Origin: Nodosilinea sp. FACHB-131
GTDB taxonomy: Bacteria > Cyanobacteriota > Cyanobacteriia > Phormidesmidales > Phormidesmidaceae
Assembly: GCF_014695395.1 (NCBI RefSeq)
Contig: NZ_JACJOF010000031.1
Coordinates: 1 to 64,000, forward strand
Length of the DNA: 64,000 nucleotides
Direction: 5' to 3'
The first letter of the stretch is position 1, and every line of letters begins with the position of its first letter. The translations under genes and the position numbers were made by a program. This document shows positions 53,854 through 60,480 of the stretch, in pieces. A model generated the notes under the pieces. That model was given only the letters and a program-made list of their open reading frames with translations. It was not told the origin of the DNA and did not search any database.

Positions 53854-56415
53854 ATGGCCCAAACCTCTTCTCAACAACTCAATGCTGCCTTTAAAGGCTG
53901 GTGGCTGGGAGGGGTAGGCCTGTTGTCGGTTGTCGTGATGACCTGGCTACCCCACAGCTATCTACGTATGGTGAGCTGGCCCTGGGCTTTGGTTTGGCAG
54001 CTGGGGTTTTTGGCCTTTGGCAGCTGGCTGGTCTGGCTGCTGCGCCAGTTTCACGTGCCGTTTCGTCCCCTTGGCTACGGGCTCGATTGGGCCGTAGTTG
54101 GCACAGGTATTGGTTTAATAGTTTGCAGCCTGACCAGCGACTTCAAAATGGTGGCCCTGTGGAATGTGGTTTTAGCGACGTACTACTTTTTCGCTTTGTA
54201 CTGCGGCATCAATTGGGTAAACCAGGCCCAGCTTAAAGCCACTCAGATCGCCGCGGCGATCGCCACAGCTATGCTTGGCACCGCCTTAATTTCCCTCCTC
54301 CTTTGGCGACCTGCGTCAGAGGCAGCGTTAGACGACAGTTTCTCGGCTGCTCTGCGCAATGCTATGCCCTTTGGCCATCACAATTTTGTGGGTGGCTACT
54401 TTGCCCTGGCGCTGCCGTTTGTTGCAGCCTGTGCTGTGGCCTTGAAGGGGTGGCTGCGGTGGTTGATGGTGGTGGCATCGGCCTTGGCTGCGATTGCCCT
54501 TTATGTCAGCGGGTCGCGAGGGGCGCTGTTAGGGGTTTTGGTGTGGTTGCTCGTGACTGTCATTGCCGTTGTGGTTAACCCCACTGCTAAGGGTAGAACC
54601 CAGCGATGGCTACTAGGCGGGCTGGGGCTAGCTGTAGCGATCGGTGTTCTAGCCAGCAACTCACGGTTTCGCAGCTTATTTAGCGGCCTAAATCTTAACC
54701 AACCCTCGGGCTTTGTGGTGCAAGATGGCCCGGTACTCGATCGCTACTTCCTGTTCAAAACTGCCCTCAACATTCTCAGCCATCGTCCCCTATTGGGCGT
54801 GGGACCAGGGGTGATGAGCCGTGTCTCAAATCTATATCGCCCCGTAGAAACGGGCCTGGGTCAAGATCACGCCCAGCAGCTCCACAGCACACCGTTTCAG
54901 CTTTTAGGAGAAATGGGGCTAGTGGGCCTTGGGCTGTACCTAGCTTGGCTAGTGCTTATCGCTGCACTCTGGTTCCGCCTGTACCGAATTGTGAAAGCTC
55001 GGGATAATCAATGGCTGCTGTATGGCGTAGGTGGAAGCCTCCTAGCCTACGGAGTATCTAGCCTAACTGACTACCAGCTTGAAAACATTGGCCTCTCTAT
55101 GGTGCTGATGGCTTTTCTCTTACTGCTGCTGTGCCTGGCCAACCAAACTGCACTACCTCCTCCTACCCTTCTCGGTAGTGCGGCCCGACGCTACCTCAGT
55201 TTGGGTTTGGTAGCCTGGCTGGTGATTACGGGCTACCTGTGGCTTAAGGCTGATCTGGGTTTCTTTTTTACCCATCGAGCCCTTAGTCGGGCAGAACAAG
55301 GCGACATAGCCGGTTCTCTACAACAGCTTTCGACCGCCGCCGCCTTCGTGCCTTGGGATCCAACCTATTCCGCCCTGGCCGGGCAAAACATTTATCAACT
55401 GCTGCCTCTAGTGCCCCCTGCTGAGCAGGATGCCGTGCGCCGAGACGTCCTGGCTGATTCATATAGCGCTGTTGCGATCGCCCCCAACGATGCCTGGTTT
55501 AATTACAACATGGCGGTTCTGCTGTTACCCCAAAATCCAGTAGCAGCAGCGGACTATAGCTGTCGCGCCGTGCAGCTACTCCCCAGGAAAAGTGCCTTGA
55601 GCCGCTATGTGCTAGGGCAAACTTACTTAGCCCAGGGACAAACTGAAGCCGCCATAACCGCATTTAGTCTTCAGGGCTTAGCCCAGCCCGAATTTTTGAC
55701 TTTTCCCCTTTGGGAGCAAGCGCCACTAACCCCAATTAAGCAACAGGTTTTAGATCAGGCGTTGACCTACCACGAGTCTGTGCTTAAGGATCTATCACCA
55801 GAGGTTCCGGGCTATTCCACCTTCTACGACCAAACAGCGCTGATCCGCTGGTGGCAGAGACAACCTCTCACCGCCAATCGTGATAGCCTACGACCAATCA
55901 CTCAGGCGCTTTTGGCCACAGACCAAAGCCTAGAAGCGGCTCTAGCTATCGTTAATCAAGCTCTACAAGCCACTCCCCAAGATCAGGCCCTGTTACTGCT
56001 GCGGGCATGGCTTGCGCCGGCCACCTTTGCCCAAACCTATTTTGCTCAAACCGCTTTCCCTGCACCCAAGGAGGCCCTACTGGCCGAATCGCTGGGGCAA
56101 TTTCGGGATGCGCGATCGTGGTTGACTTCTATGATAGAACCGGCCGAGCTAACCGGCCGTAGCCTGTTAGGGCTCACCTACCGCAATCGATATGCTCAAG
56201 GCATTAACTTTATTGCCCCCATAGAAGGCATGGATCAGTGGGTTATCCCCAGCCTGCTTAAGTTGTTTGACGAGTTGCCCAGGGAGTTTGTGGCGCTAGA
56301 CCAAGCCATAGAGGCAATTCAAACCGAGCAGCTTAACTTACCTAGTGCCCCCAATAATCGCTTTGAAATTACACCCCTGCCTTCACTGCCCAAAAACTTT
56401 TTTGATCGGGTGTGA
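53854..56415 (+). CDS. O-antigen ligase/Wzy_C-family protein with C-terminal TPR-like domain
   Basis: 853 residues from the ATG at 53854. About eleven transmembrane helices (20-460) form a Wzy_C/O-antigen ligase module with the motif FGHHNFVGGYF and the periplasmic HSTPFQLLGEMGL (His, Glu) typical of the family. The remaining 380 residues are a helical TPR-like domain (AEQGDIAGSLQQLSTAAAFV and QLLPRKSALSRYVLGQTYLAQ). Such proteins transfer glycans to lipid A or, in the PilO/PglL branch, to pilins. The stop is 84 bp before a type IV pilin gene on the same strand, so a pilin oligosaccharyltransferase is possible. IctB-like transporters are a remote alternative. Confidence 0.82.
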   Translation: MAQTSSQQLNAAFKGWWLGGVGLLSVVVMTWLPHSYLRMVSWPWALVWQLGFLAFGSWLVWLLRQFHVPFRPLGYGLDWAVVGTGIGLIVCSLTSDFKMVALWNVVLATYYFFALYCGINWVNQAQLKATQIAAAIATAMLGTALISLLLWRPASEAALDDSFSAALRNAMPFGHHNFVGGYFALALPFVAACAVALKGWLRWLMVVASALAAIALYVSGSRGALLGVLVWLLVTVIAVVVNPTAKGRTQRWLLGGLGLAVAIGVLASNSRFRSLFSGLNLNQPSGFVVQDGPVLDRYFLFKTALNILSHRPLLGVGPGVMSRVSNLYRPVETGLGQDHAQQLHSTPFQLLGEMGLVGLGLYLAWLVLIAALWFRLYRIVKARDNQWLLYGVGGSLLAYGVSSLTDYQLENIGLSMVLMAFLLLLLCLANQTALPPPTLLGSAARRYLSLGLVAWLVITGYLWLKADLGFFFTHRALSRAEQGDIAGSLQQLSTAAAFVPWDPTYSALAGQNIYQLLPLVPPAEQDAVRRDVLADSYSAVAIAPNDAWFNYNMAVLLLPQNPVAAADYSCRAVQLLPRKSALSRYVLGQTYLAQGQTEAAITAFSLQGLAQPEFLTFPLWEQAPLTPIKQQVLDQALTYHESVLKDLSPEVPGYSTFYDQTALIRWWQRQPLTANRDSLRPITQALLATDQSLEAALAIVNQALQATPQDQALLLLRAWLAPATFAQTYFAQTAFPAPKEALLAESLGQFRDARSWLTSMIEPAELTGRSLLGLTYRNRYAQGINFIAPIEGMDQWVIPSLLKLFDELPREFVALDQAIEAIQTEQLNLPSAPNNRFEITPLPSLPKNFFDRV

Positions 56416-56499
56416 TCGCTCGGTCAGAGCACGTGGGTAAGTTAGACCTAGGCGCAAATACATCTCTACCGCCGCCTAAACCCAAGGAGACATACACAC

Positions 56500-57042
56500 A
56501 TGAAAGCATCTCTTAAAGCCAACCTGCTCAAGCACTTCATCGCTAAAAAAGAAGAAGGCGGCTTCACCCTAATTGAACTGCTGGTTGTTATTATCATCAT
56601 CGGTATTCTGGCTGCGATCGCCCTGCCTTCTTTCCTCAACCAAGCTAACAAAGCTCGTCAGTCGGAAGCTAAAACCTACGTTGGTTCGATGAACCGTGGT
56701 CAGCAGGCTTACCGTCTAGAGAACCCCACCTTTGCTCCTGGTTTTGTGGAACTGGCCATTGGTATTCCTTCCAACACCACTTACTACAACTACACCATTG
56801 GCGCTAGTGGGCCTTTTGGCGCAACGGCTTTTGCTGACAGAGTTGATACCGCTCTGAAGAGCTACGTCGGTGCTGCTCAGCTAAACTCGGGTAGCGCAAC
56901 CACGGAAGCAACCACGATTGCACTCATTTGTGAATCGACTCAAGCTAACGTACCTGCTGCTGCCGGTGCGCTCACTAACTTCAGCACTACTGCGAGTCAG
57001 TCTGCTACTACTTGCACAACCGGTACTTGGAAGAAACTCTAG
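56500..57042 (+). CDS. Type IV pilin (PilA-like)
   Basis: 180 residues with a 21-residue basic leader ending EEGG and prepilin cleavage before Phe22 (FTLIELLVVIIIIGILAAIA), the classical N-methylation/processing site with Glu at +5. The C-terminal part has a Cys pair (CESTQ near 145 and CTTGTW near 175), the usual disulfide loop. It has an AAGGAG site before the ATG at 56500 and a strong terminator after it. It is the major or a minor pilin for motility or DNA uptake; which one is not shown. No assembly genes are in the window. Confidence 0.95.
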   Translation: MKASLKANLLKHFIAKKEEGGFTLIELLVVIIIIGILAAIALPSFLNQANKARQSEAKTYVGSMNRGQQAYRLENPTFAPGFVELAIGIPSNTTYYNYTIGASGPFGATAFADRVDTALKSYVGAAQLNSGSATTEATTIALICESTQANVPAAAGALTNFSTTASQSATTCTTGTWKKL

Positions 57043-57081
57043 GTTATTGATCAGTGCTTGACTTCTAGTTTCTAATAACAT

Positions 57082-57126
57082 TTGGGATCAGTTACTTATT
57101 CTTACGTAGCTGATCCCAAGTTTTTT
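57082..57126 (+). terminator. Rho-independent terminator of the pilin gene
   Basis: TTGGGATCAGTTAC (57082-57095) pairs with GTAGCTGATCCCAA (57106-57119), one G-U wobble, a 10-nt loop and then TTTTTT. Forty bp after the pilin stop. High-confidence intrinsic terminator. Confidence 0.92.
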
Positions 57127-57441
57127 AAAGAAGTTTGAGAAGCCGCCATCAGTTCGATGTTGAGAGTAGTAGAAGCTATACGTTTAGTGAAAAGGTTATC
57201 TAGCCAAGAATAGGTTCTACAATTTGTGCTCATCAGAATAGATGGAGAGCTTACAGCCATCTAAAAATCTTCTCAAAATACTTTGACTCTTGTAGCATTT
57301 ATCATTTCTTGCAAATCCATCCAAATTTTCTGTTTATGTAGTGGTTGTGGCAGTGAGGGAGAAAACTGAATGCGCACAACTTATCGATTGGCAAGAAAAG
57401 AAAACAGAGGCGATTGCTCAACCTAACCTGCTGAGCTGAAA
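57127..57441. other. AT-rich intergenic stretch between two terminators
   Basis: About 315 bp bounded by the pilin terminator and the bidirectional hairpin at 57442-57474. No protein-coding frame is convincing. Short inverted repeats are present (for example GATGG...CCATC around 57240-57260). A small RNA ending at the downstream hairpin is conceivable but I cannot place a promoter. Confidence 0.4.
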
Positions 57442-57474
57442 AAAACGCTGAACAAAATCTTTGTTCAGCGTTTT
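57442..57474. terminator. Bidirectional 15-bp hairpin terminator
   Basis: AAAACGCTGAACAAA, loop ATC, then its exact reverse complement TTTGTTCAGCGTTTT. The arms end in A/T runs on both sides, so it can terminate both strands. On the minus strand it lies just after the MoaD/ThiS-like gene. Confidence 0.85.
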
Positions 57475-57505
57475 CTGATCTAATAGCTAGTTTCCGGCTT
57501 TAACA

Positions 57506-57781
57506 TTAGCCCCCAGCTACGGCAGGGACAATGCTGACTTCATCGCCGTCATTAAGGGCAGTCTCTTTGCCGTCGAGAAAGCGAATGTCTTCGCTGTTAA
57601 CGTAAAAGTTAACAAAGCGACGCAGCTCACCAGAATCATCGCAAAGCCGGGCTTTGATACCGGGGCAGTTGCTCTCCAAATCATTCAGCAGATCTATGAT
57701 GTTGCCGCCACTGCATTCAAGGGCAGCCTGGTTGTTGGTGAATTTTTGCAGCGGAGTCGGAATTAGTACTTTAACAGCCAT
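57506..57781 (-). CDS. MoaD/ThiS-family sulfur-carrier protein
   Basis: 91 residues from the ATG at 57781 ([14 protein letters not shown]); a longer frame to 57847 is not supported. It has the beta-grasp fold pattern of MoaD/ThiS (VKVLIPTPL, an [16 protein letters not shown] helix, [28 protein letters not shown]) and ends in the required Gly-Gly, which would be adenylated and thiocarboxylated. It is downstream of thrC (121 bp) on the same strand and followed by a terminator, so the two are one operon. The partner enzyme is not certain: see finding. Confidence 0.9.
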
Positions 57782-57902
57782 GGTTTGAGTAAATGAATCG
57801 GGAAAGAAAATTGAGCATATTGCTAAGGTGTAAGGGTTAGGGTGCAAGGTTTAAGCCAGAAAATCAGCTCTTCGAACCCTGTACCACACCACACCTTAAA
57901 CC

Positions 57903-59207
57903 TTAAACCAGGACCTGCTGCCACTCCAGCCGGTCGAGGGTACGGGAGCGCTCTAGAGCACGCTCGAAGCTGTCGAGCTTAGGCTCAATGGTAAAGGGCT
58001 CACCAATATAACCCTGTACAGCTTCTTGGGTTTTAAGGCCGTTGCCGGTGATATAGACGACAGTAGACTCATCGGGATTAATTTTACCGGCTTCTACCAG
58101 CTTTTTGAGTACCGCAATGGTGGTGCCGCCAGCGGTCTCGGTAAAGATACCTTCGGTTTCGGCCAGCAGCTTCATCCCTTCAATGACTTCGGCGTCGGTT
58201 ACCGATTCGATATTGCCGTTGGTCTTACGAGCTATATCGAGAGCATAGATGCCGTCGGCGGGGTTGCCGATGGCAATGGACTTGGCAATCGTGTTGGGTT
58301 TTACCGGGGTGACAAAGTCGCGGCCCTCTTTAAAGGCTTGGGCAATGGGAGAGCAACCCTCGGCTTGGGCACCACTAAAGCGAACGGGCTTATCGTCGAC
58401 GAGACCAACTTTAACGAATTCTTGGAAGCCTTTGTAGATTTTGGTGAACAGTGACCCAGACGCCAAAGGCGCTACGATATGGTCGGGCAAACGCCAACCT
58501 AGTTGCTCAGCTACCTCGTAGCCCAATGTTTTAGACCCCTCAGAGTAGTAGGGGCGCAGGTTGATGTTGACGAAACCCCAACCCTGGGTGTTAGCCACTT
58601 CAGAGCACAGGCGATTGACCTGGTCGTAGTTGCCCTGCACGGCCATTACTGTGGGGTTGTAAATTAGGGTGCCGAGCACTTTGCCTGCTTCTAGGTCAGC
58701 AGGAATGAACACGCAGCAGTCAAGGCCAGCATGAGCTGCGATCGCAGCCGTAGAGTTCGCCAAGTTGCCCGTGCTGGCACAAGACACTGTAGTAAAACCC
58801 AGCTCCCGGGCTCGAGTCAGCGCTACCGACACTACTCGATCCTTAAAGCTAAGGGTGGGCATATTGACAGCGTCATTCTTTATATAGAGTTCTTTTAGCC
58901 CCAGCTGCCGTGCTAGTCGATTGGCACGCACTAGGGGAGTCATGCCAGTTCCCACATCAATCGGGTTGTCGGTGCTGACGGGTAAGAAGTCTTTGTAGCG
59001 CCAGATAGACAGCGGCCCAGCCTGAATGGTGCTGCGGGTAACCCGCCGACGAATCTCATCGTAGTCGTAAGCTACCTCTAGCGGGCCAAAGCATACGTCT
59101 TCGCATACGTGCTTGGCGCCTAGATCGTAGGTTTCACCACACTCTCGGCACTTCAACGCTGAAAAGGTAGGTTTGGCGGCGATAGCTTGCTCGATAGACT
59201 GCGTCAT
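57903..59207 (-). CDS. thrC: Threonine synthase
   Basis: 434 residues, PLP fold type II. The N-terminal zinc-ribbon-like segment holds Cys20, Cys23, Cys35 and Cys39 (KCRECGETYDL, VCEDVCFG), a cyanobacterial/plant-like trait. The PLP Lys is in LSFKDRVV, and GTGMTPLV, CASTGNLANS and GNPADGIY are also visible. It converts O-phosphohomoserine to threonine. The conserved downstream sulfur-carrier gene raises the question of a second role. Two short hairpins lie in its leader (59254-59318). Confidence 0.95.
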   Translation of the reverse strand: MTQSIEQAIAAKPTFSALKCRECGETYDLGAKHVCEDVCFGPLEVAYDYDEIRRRVTRSTIQAGPLSIWRYKDFLPVSTDNPIDVGTGMTPLVRANRLARQLGLKELYIKNDAVNMPTLSFKDRVVSVALTRARELGFTTVSCASTGNLANSTAAIAAHAGLDCCVFIPADLEAGKVLGTLIYNPTVMAVQGNYDQVNRLCSEVANTQGWGFVNINLRPYYSEGSKTLGYEVAEQLGWRLPDHIVAPLASGSLFTKIYKGFQEFVKVGLVDDKPVRFSGAQAEGCSPIAQAFKEGRDFVTPVKPNTIAKSIAIGNPADGIYALDIARKTNGNIESVTDAEVIEGMKLLAETEGIFTETAGGTTIAVLKKLVEAGKINPDESTVVYITGNGLKTQEAVQGYIGEPFTIEPKLDSFERALERSRTLDRLEWQQVLV

Positions 59208-59253
59208 GGCGTTTTCTCTGAGATTCCTGAGGAGCGGTTATTGACTTCGCTAA

Positions 59254-59318
59254 GTTACTCAGAACGTAACACCGGAAACAATATTTGGTCAAATGTACCC
59301 GACCAAAAAAGTCGGGTA
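59254..59318 (-). promoter_or_regulatory. Two small hairpins in the thrC leader
   Basis: GTTAC-N7-GTAAC at 59254-59270 and TACCCGAC-N7-GTCGGGTA at 59296-59318, 45-110 bp upstream of the thrC start. They are candidates for operator or attenuator elements. I recognise no riboswitch class and no leader peptide. Confidence 0.35.
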
Positions 59319-59484
59319 TAGGCAAGACTTTTGCGCCAGTAGGTGCTCGTTCCTAACTAAGCGCGACCAGCCCAGTTGTCCTGAGTTTGCTACTGCTCTC
59401 GGTCTCGCGGGCGGGTGTTCAGACCATCAACAACTACTCTGTAGCTACCTCAAAGGCTCTAAAATCGGCTTTCAGCGCAATAAA

Positions 59485-59498
59485 GTAACTTGCTATAC
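59485..59498 (+). promoter_or_regulatory. NtcA-binding site (GTA-N8-TAC) of the ntcA promoter
   Basis: GTAACTTGCTATAC at 59485-59498 is a perfect GTAN8TAC. A -10-like TTAAGT lies at 59522-59527, placing the site about 41-42 bp before a transcription start near 59533, the class II activator arrangement. The gene 190 bp downstream is ntcA itself, so this predicts autoregulation with 2-oxoglutarate as signal. Confidence 0.82.
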
Positions 59499-59691
59499 AA
59501 ACGCTTGCCTTGCAGTTGAGGTTAAGTGATCTAAAGTCATGGAACGTTTGCATTGGTTGGTGTGCCAGACCAGTCAGACTGCTTTATGCTTTATGCCCAA
59601 AGGTGGTCTGCGCTGCGGGTTTGGCTATCGTAACGATGGCAAAACAGTAATTCAGTGCAGATGCTCTCTGTGATGCTCTTAGCAGAACGTT

Positions 59692-60363
59692 ATGGTAGTG
59701 ACTCAAGATAAGCCCCTTGCCAATGTTTTTCGTCAGCTGTCTGGAGGAGCGTTTCCCCCTGTAGTCGAATCCTATGAGCGGGGGAAAACAATCTTTTTCC
59801 CTGGAGACCCGGCCGAACGGGTGTATTTTCTGCTGAAAGGGGCGGTTAAGCTGTCGCGGGTGTACGAGGCTGGAGAAGAAATCACAGTTGCCTTGCTGCG
59901 CGAAAATAGTGTGTTTGGAGTCTTGTCGCTAATTACGGGCAATCGTTCCGATCGCTTTTATCACTCTGTAGCCTTTACCCCAGTAGAGCTACTGTCGGTT
60001 CCAATCGAGCAGGTTGAGCAGGCGCTGGAAGACAATCCTGAACTGGCCTTGCTGATGTTGAGAGGGTTGTCCTCTCGCATCTTGCAAACTGAAATGATGA
60101 TTGAAACTTTGGCCCATCGAGACATGGGCTCGCGCTTAGTAAGTTTCCTACTCATTCTCTGCCGCGATTTTGGAGTACCTAGTCAGGATGGCATCACTAT
60201 TGACCTGAAATTGTCTCATCAAGCCATTGCTGAGGCCATTGGCTCCACTCGGGTGACTGTGACTCGTCTGCTAGGAGATTTGCGCCAGGAAGGCATGATC
60301 TCTATTTATAAAAAGAAGATTACTGTGCATGATCCGGTCAATCTGAGTCAGCAATTTACTTAG
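59692..60363 (+). CDS. ntcA: Global nitrogen regulator NtcA
   Basis: 223 residues of the CRP/FNR family. The cupin-like N-terminal domain (about 25-125) has [20 protein letters not shown], the central helix [18 protein letters not shown] follows, and the C-terminal HTH is [21 protein letters not shown]. The tail [17 protein letters not shown] is characteristic of NtcA. It activates nitrogen-assimilation genes when 2-oxoglutarate is high. It has a canonical GTAN8TAC site upstream and is followed 117 bp later by DUF3084, an arrangement seen in other cyanobacteria. Confidence 0.97.
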
Positions 60364-60480
60364 TTTGGGTTTGGCTAGGTGTGGTGGTTCTAGTAGCCAA
60401 ACCAGCTATCGACAGTATTGGGGCGTACGAGGCCTCAACCCATGCAGTAGAGTAAGTGCAAACTCCCCTGTGGCTGGTGC

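Follow-up and report, generated by a model that had tools for sequence, protein, structure and literature searches.

What does a gene annotated as threonine synthase make when a small sulfur-carrier gene lies directly downstream of it? The question arises in the cyanobacterium Nodosilinea sp. FACHB-131, in a stretch of 64,000 nucleotides (contig NZ_JACJOF010000031.1, positions 1 to 64,000; hereafter the window), where a first-pass annotation had described a thrC-like gene with a four-cysteine segment followed by a carrier ending in Gly-Gly. Both genes were located, on the minus strand. From comparison of their sequences with relatives we read them as a cyanobacterial metM-metO pair that would make homocysteine, the precursor of methionine, and we put the probability of this reading at roughly three in four. 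The features of the locus are as follows.

57903..59207, minus strand: metM-like gene, of the type annotated as thrC, encoding a 434-residue PLP enzyme (PF00291 and TIGR00260; MetM clade)
57506..57781, minus strand: metO-like sulfur-carrier gene, 91 residues, C-terminus AVAGG (PF02597; nearest solved relatives of CysO type)
59298..59316, no strand assigned: palindrome CCCGAC-N7-GTCGGG, exact, likely metM operator (found upstream of metM at 109 of 121 cyanobacterial loci)
59288..59293, minus strand: -35-like box TTTGAC adjoining the palindrome, read from the sequence
57445..57471, minus strand: hairpin followed by a T run, a possible end of the metM-metO transcript, read from the sequence

The gene pair and its relatives

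The window enzyme matches PALP at 9.2e-77 in a profile search and scores 347.9 bits against the thrC model TIGR00260 (cut-off 167.1), which places it above the threshold for canonical ThrC. The carrier scores 62.1 bits against the ThiS family PF02597 (cut-off 22.5) and ends at GG with zero residues beyond; the two genes are separated by 121 bases. As listed, the carrier reading frame is 113 residues long and begins with a TTG at 57847, although the true start is probably the ATG at 57781, since in each of the 22 genomes that gave a match the alignment begins at the first residue of the 91-residue form. A divergent gene at 59692-60363, which we take to be ntcA-like, has its start about 485 bases away from that of metM.

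The pairing resembles three known systems to different degrees. In Streptomyces albulus, Hasebe et al. 2024 are said to have found that thiocarboxylated MetO and MetM together convert O-phosphohomoserine to homocysteine, and the gene order there is alike, a threonine-synthase-like PLP enzyme and then a Gly-Gly carrier; the likeness is drawn through Streptomyces relatives, with which the window enzyme shares a clade and conserved blocks, and not through the S. albulus sequence. The best solved relatives of the window carrier are 4n6e_B and 3dwg_C (7.2e-22 each), both of which we take to be CysO, and the best chain named MoaD reaches 1.9e-10; on this comparison the carrier is CysO-like. CysO, CysM and Mec+ serve cysteine synthesis in mycobacteria, and share with the window a CysO-type carrier beside a PLP enzyme using a phosphorylated amino acid, but the window partner is of threonine-synthase type and not CysM, and no JAMM gene lies beside the pair. 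In Wolinella, HcyS and MetY likewise make homocysteine from a carrier thiocarboxylate, although MetY acts on O-acetylhomoserine and the window partner is a MetM-type enzyme.

Relatives were collected with a DNA pattern for the enzyme that is GC-rich, encodes the motif T-x-x-F-K-D-R-V-V and does not include the carrier. It returned at least 120 stretches, every one encoding a relative of the window enzyme; the matches listed come mainly from Actinobacteria, with some from Chloroflexi, Dormiibacterota, Verrucomicrobia, Acidobacteria, Planctomycetes and Nitrospinota and two from Cyanobium. A quick maximum-likelihood tree was built from 135 rows (those below 400 bits excluded; SH-aLRT support; long-branch warning from the tool); in it 124 rows form a MetM clade with support 100, its non-cyanobacterial rows drawn from the matches listed, and 11 threonine synthases fall outside. 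The cyanobacterial rows are nested within this clade among those of other phyla. Among the matches listed, identity to the window enzyme is 54.0-62.8% for 77 paired non-cyanobacterial MetM rows and 55.9-58.7% for 17 Streptomyces rows; for the 11 ThrC rows it is 33.6-38.2%. There are 119 columns that are near-invariant in the MetM clade, 20 of which hold residues never seen in the 11 ThrC rows, although two of these 20 (V125 and V126) are imposed by the search pattern itself. The catalytic blocks of the window enzyme read PTLSFKDRVV, ASGSL and ETAGGT, where the ThrC of the same genome has PTGSFKDRG, GNAGN and EPASAA, and in the alignment with the 11 ThrC rows the window enzyme does not match the canonical block residues.

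Of 18 non-cyanobacterial loci, which we selected from the 118 among the matches listed, 16 have a SAM riboswitch 5' of MetM; it is missing in L121 and L163. These riboswitches link the family with methionine without recourse to published work, and since two of the 18 have none we regard the element as a usual companion and not as a defining feature. Tree, residues and pairing thus support membership of the window pair in the MetM-MetO family. The first-pass proposal that O-phosphohomoserine and a thiocarboxylated carrier could yield a sulfur compound is borne out as far as these three lines of comparison reach, with catalysis by the cyanobacterial proteins themselves still a prediction.

The four-cysteine segment that had drawn attention to the enzyme (C20, C23, C35 and C39) fared less well, and a tie between these cysteines and sulfur chemistry is not supported. 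C20, C23 and C39 are absent from 8 of the 121 cyanobacterial orthologues, and related four-cysteine threonine synthases (seven loci, 33.6-38.2% identity) have no carrier in the 5.5-6 kb fetched around them; the four cysteines are therefore not essential.

Distribution of the pair and its partner proteins

Among the matches listed, 80 of the 120 loci found with the enzyme pattern have a carrier immediately 3' of the enzyme gene, two of the 80 being Cyanobium. Sixteen of the other 40 have less than 500 bases of room, and 24 have no adjoining carrier despite room, as in MetM loci of Micromonosporaceae and Geodermatophilaceae (L115, L129, L158, L160 and relatives). L115 and L129 carry a SAM riboswitch upstream of MetM although no carrier is next door.

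Conservation of the pair in cyanobacteria, which the first-pass annotation had named as a check, is extensive. In 106 of 121 distinct loci the carrier gene comes next after the enzyme gene in the same orientation, a pairing beyond chance. The exceptions, 15 genomes from two families (11 from f40 and four from f18), all encode MetO elsewhere with 63-75% identity, so that enzyme and carrier travel together even where they are unlinked. In a phylum-wide sample of 116 genomes, 50 of 53 Cyanobacteriia gave a match with an identity of 79% or more, and none of the 63 others did (best 39%). A second sample, of 116 Cyanobacteriia, has MetM in 105 genomes, and all 105 also have MetO (104 tallied from loci, with the gene split in G117). 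The 11 genomes without MetM comprise ten of family f20, which have PF01053 enzymes and zero MetO matches, and the draft genome G174, in which MetM is missing and MetO is kept beside other genes. The tree links f20 to named Cyanobium (Prochlorococcaceae), and two of its 12 genomes (G194 and G200) retain MetM. Genome G043 was considered as a natural loss of MetM and MetO keeping only HcyBio, and was dropped because about 24% of the 180 kb sampled reads N; its coding-density figures are distorted by the same N runs.

Several carriers and loci depart from the common arrangement. Thirteen non-cyanobacterial carriers among the matches listed end in AGGC (L108, L118, L154, L174 and others) and a few have other extra residues past GG, which suggests processing. 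In the Chloroflexi locus L179 the MetO frame runs past GG into a further domain-like sequence, presumably of AhpD type. A second MetO-like carrier (44-46%) lies between the JAMM and E1 genes in two genomes (G144:C1:721693-721965 and G170:C1:2480163-2480438). At L233:3460-3774 (G053) a MoaD-like carrier gene is just 5' of metM and MetO just 3', and at L231 (G203) HcyBio lies near metM, divergent and with one open frame between, MetO being unlinked in that genome.

A thiocarboxylate route calls for an E1-like adenylating partner, which the first-pass annotation proposed to look for together with its genetic link. The partner is there, linkage is not: the Nodosilinea genome has one E1, a MoeB-rhodanese protein encoded on another contig, and a JAMM gene precedes the E1 gene by 24 bases. 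An E1 match was found in 115 of the 116 genomes of the class sample. JAMM matches (PF14464, E up to 1e-5) occur in 87 of the 116; they are missing in 24 of 105 MetM-bearing genomes and present in 6 of 11 without MetM. Release of the product from the carrier by a Mec+-like peptidase was considered as a general need of the route and rejected, because the presence of JAMM does not track that of MetM.

For the window pair the route would run as follows. The C-terminal Gly-Gly of MetO would be adenylated and then thiocarboxylated by the cell's MoeB-rhodanese E1; MetM would take O-phosphohomoserine from the threonine pathway, eliminate phosphate and accept sulfur from MetO to give homocysteine. A second, canonical ThrC of the same genome, recognised by its family match, would make threonine.

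A palindrome upstream of metM

Unlike Streptomyces-type MetM, the window enzyme gene has no SAM riboswitch and carries CCCGAC-N7-GTCGGG upstream instead. Neither a SAM riboswitch nor another Rfam match was found near the window genes (56400-60400), and no SAM riboswitch was found in 20 cyanobacterial metM loci. Of 121 cyanobacterial metM genes, 109 have the palindrome when up to two mismatches and a distance of at most 350 bases upstream are allowed. Among those with at least 250 bases available it was found in 62 of 64, and 64 control stretches taken from within genes yielded none. Twelve genes gave no match; for ten of these the fetched sequence was limited to 200 bases, and the others, L008 and L064, are both from one genus (g12). 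The arms covary in places, as in L255 (CCAGAC/GTCTGG). A TTTGAC-like box lies at most 16 bases away on the gene side at 96 of 109 sites and on the opposite side at 2 of 109; a -10-like pattern follows in 96 of 96, but this pattern is too loose to discriminate. These features mark the palindrome as the likely metM operator, which, lying beside the promoter, would stand in for the SAM riboswitch found in other phyla.

A sigma-70 scanner listed no metM promoter and no hairpin 3' of metO in the window. Its one minus-strand terminator-like match (59307-59284) overlaps the palindrome, and it gave three matches in total, with 2.8 expected by chance.

The window palindrome is the sole exact match in the 64 kb, where four further matches with two mismatches occur, as chance predicts. 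When a weight matrix was trained with the window site left out, that site was its sole match in 854 kb of the Nodosilinea genome (the window plus 40 further stretches, together about 13% of the whole), and no wider regulon was found there; a control on the sequence read backwards gave two matches at the cut-off, and weak sites are thus indistinguishable from chance. With up to two mismatches the palindrome was not found at the genome's own MetX-MetY, HcyBio, NIL or E1-JAMM loci. With at most one mismatch it occurs in 7 of the 118 non-cyanobacterial loci among the matches listed. A one-mismatch copy was seen near a JAMM gene at L077:1367 (genome G204). No copy was found within 400 bases of unlinked metO in the genomes examined (13 of the 15, and G174); this speaks against a shared regulator of metM and metO in those genomes. 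The shape of the palindrome resembles the IscR type-1 consensus (median 21 of 25 positions), and we infer a putative operator for an Rrf2/IscR-like regulator.

Alternative readings and the place of the route in methionine synthesis

How much homocysteine passes through the pair depends on what else the cells possess, and DUF39 and NIL proteins, a difference from the Streptomyces system, are encoded in cyanobacterial genomes as well. Enzymes of family PF01053 (E up to 1e-20) occur in 45 of the 116 genomes of the class sample, with three matches apiece in the ten f20 genomes without MetM. Of the 71 genomes without PF01053, 70 have MetM and the remaining one, G174, has MetO; MetM, along with DUF39/NIL, is on that account a leading candidate for methionine synthesis in many cyanobacteria. 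Strong MetX matches (at least 350 bits, all under the model cut-off of 500) are found in 17 of 116 genomes, each beside a PF01053 gene; Nodosilinea is among these 17. A Streptomyces-type homocysteine route, as judged from these comparisons, may be one way in which cyanobacteria make methionine.

The alternative that survives best concerns the weight of this route and is compatible with a homocysteine-forming pair: MetM and MetO would serve as a backup, with the main supply coming from aspartate semialdehyde through DUF39 (HcyBio) and a NIL/ferredoxin protein and, in Nodosilinea, also through MetX-MetY. We hold this to be a serious contender, albeit one we would not quite expect to prevail. DUF39/HcyBio and a NIL-domain match are each present in 105 of 116 genomes and are both missing from the same ten that have neither MetM nor MetO, which are ten of the 12 Prochlorococcaceae-like f20 genomes. 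The NIL protein of the Nodosilinea genome, the one inspected, has two CxxCxxC...CP iron-sulfur motifs, and the same genome carries three consecutive genes, one of them cysK-like and the others metY (704 bits, cut-off 495) and metX (404 bits against NF001209, cut-off 331), so that the pair may be redundant. According to the available part of a study of Desulfovibrio, DUF39, NIL/ferredoxin and COG2122 are required for homocysteine there (PMC5764234). Against a mere backup, MetM is retained in 104 of 105 HcyBio genomes, the role of HcyBio in cyanobacteria is putative, and the COG1900 family also includes a coenzyme M synthase (PMC12068725, in the part available). MetM and HcyBio occur together in 104 genomes, are both absent from ten and occur singly in two; this co-occurrence reflects mainly one evolutionary event and therefore cannot say which of them makes homocysteine. 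This ambiguity weakens the argument for the MetM route more than anything else.

Physiology bears on the matter through Microcystis aeruginosa, whose ThrC and neighbouring carrier BH695_RS06835 are, from their published description, most likely of the same cyanobacterial family; all statements on them here follow the part of Kim 2025 (PMC12172450) available to us. That paper, to judge by the listings of our literature search on the pair and its rivals the only one to treat MetM in cyanobacteria, states that Hasebe 2024 found the homocysteine synthase MetM in Streptomyces and homologues in cyanobacteria, and the idea of the first-pass annotation was thus already in print. Microcystis ThrC is 51.6% identical to S. 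albulus MetM, and BH695_RS06835 is 47.25% identical to S. albulus MetO. With added threonine, thrC rose 10.5-fold and its metO-like neighbour 6.8-fold, homoserine increased by log2 6.8, and methionine and SAM fell; methionine returned thrC to the control level and relieved the threonine toxicity (PMC12172450). A supply from aspartate semialdehyde would not be expected to run short while homoserine accumulates, but one dependent on O-phosphohomoserine could, and these changes would thus speak against a mere backup role for the pair. Alanine also relieved the toxicity, and reversed the transcriptome more than methionine did, and this relief is unexplained by methionine starvation alone.

Kim 2025 (PMC12172450) reads the Microcystis enzyme differently from us, as a true threonine synthase with a side deaminase activity, in which case the carrier would be incidental. 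The purified protein yields threonine and alpha-ketobutyrate and acts on O-phosphohomoserine in vitro (Vmax 0.01762 umol per mg per min and Km 4.416 uM, as printed); assays with or without sulfide, and without the carrier, gave an unidentified peak, and homocysteine was not identified. In the authors' view the enzyme falls short of full MetM function in cells, and they favour threonine deamination as the cause of toxicity (PMC12172450). The score of the window enzyme above the TIGR00260 cut-off, and the NCBIfam name thrC, agree with such a reading. We nevertheless consider it unlikely, because the Nodosilinea genome has a further ThrC-family gene (C43:58865, 323.9 bits) and 52 of 53 genomes of the class have at least two matches, though not all of these need be ThrC; because relatives carry SAM riboswitches, the catalytic blocks are altered and MetO is co-retained even where unlinked; and because induction by threonine and reversal by methionine (PMC12172450) are unexpected for a threonine biosynthetic gene.

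That the carrier mainly serves another enzyme, in molybdopterin, thiamin or CysM-like cysteine synthesis or in tRNA thiolation, is very improbable: its CysO-type similarity (about 47-52% by eye) is close to that to non-cyanobacterial MetO (37-59%, median 50, among the matches listed) and the one strong E1 per genome would serve all carriers, but the Nodosilinea genome has a separate ThiS (C16:157841, 70.5 bits, cut-off 37.45, beside an apparent thiE) and a MoaD-like gene (C5:63247, 61.6 bits, just below the cut-off of 66.15), which answers the first-pass caveat that the carrier might act only in molybdopterin or thiamin synthesis, the scores of MetO against the moaD and thiS models are 16.2 and 14.8 bits, well under the same two cut-offs, and MetO is gone together with MetM in ten genomes.

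The metM-metO pair of the window is real, widely conserved and of a recently published kind, and its homocysteine-forming catalysis in cyanobacteria is a prediction well supported by comparison. Since automated models name the enzyme gene thrC, reconstructions of cyanobacterial threonine and methionine metabolism may be wrong at this point. The palindrome upstream of metM is a likely regulatory element found in the present analysis, and the MetM-MetO route offers an alternative reading of the published threonine toxicity, which we infer could be starvation of an O-phosphohomoserine-dependent methionine route. In its broadest and more tentative form, which we find attractive but would stop short of predicting, the proposal is that most photosynthetic cyanobacteria, the Prochlorococcaceae lineage excepted, may make their homocysteine mainly through MetM-MetO, under a dedicated IscR/Rrf2-like operator at metM that would sense sulfur or methionine status in place of a SAM riboswitch; threonine toxicity would then largely reflect starvation of this route and not deamination by a moonlighting enzyme.
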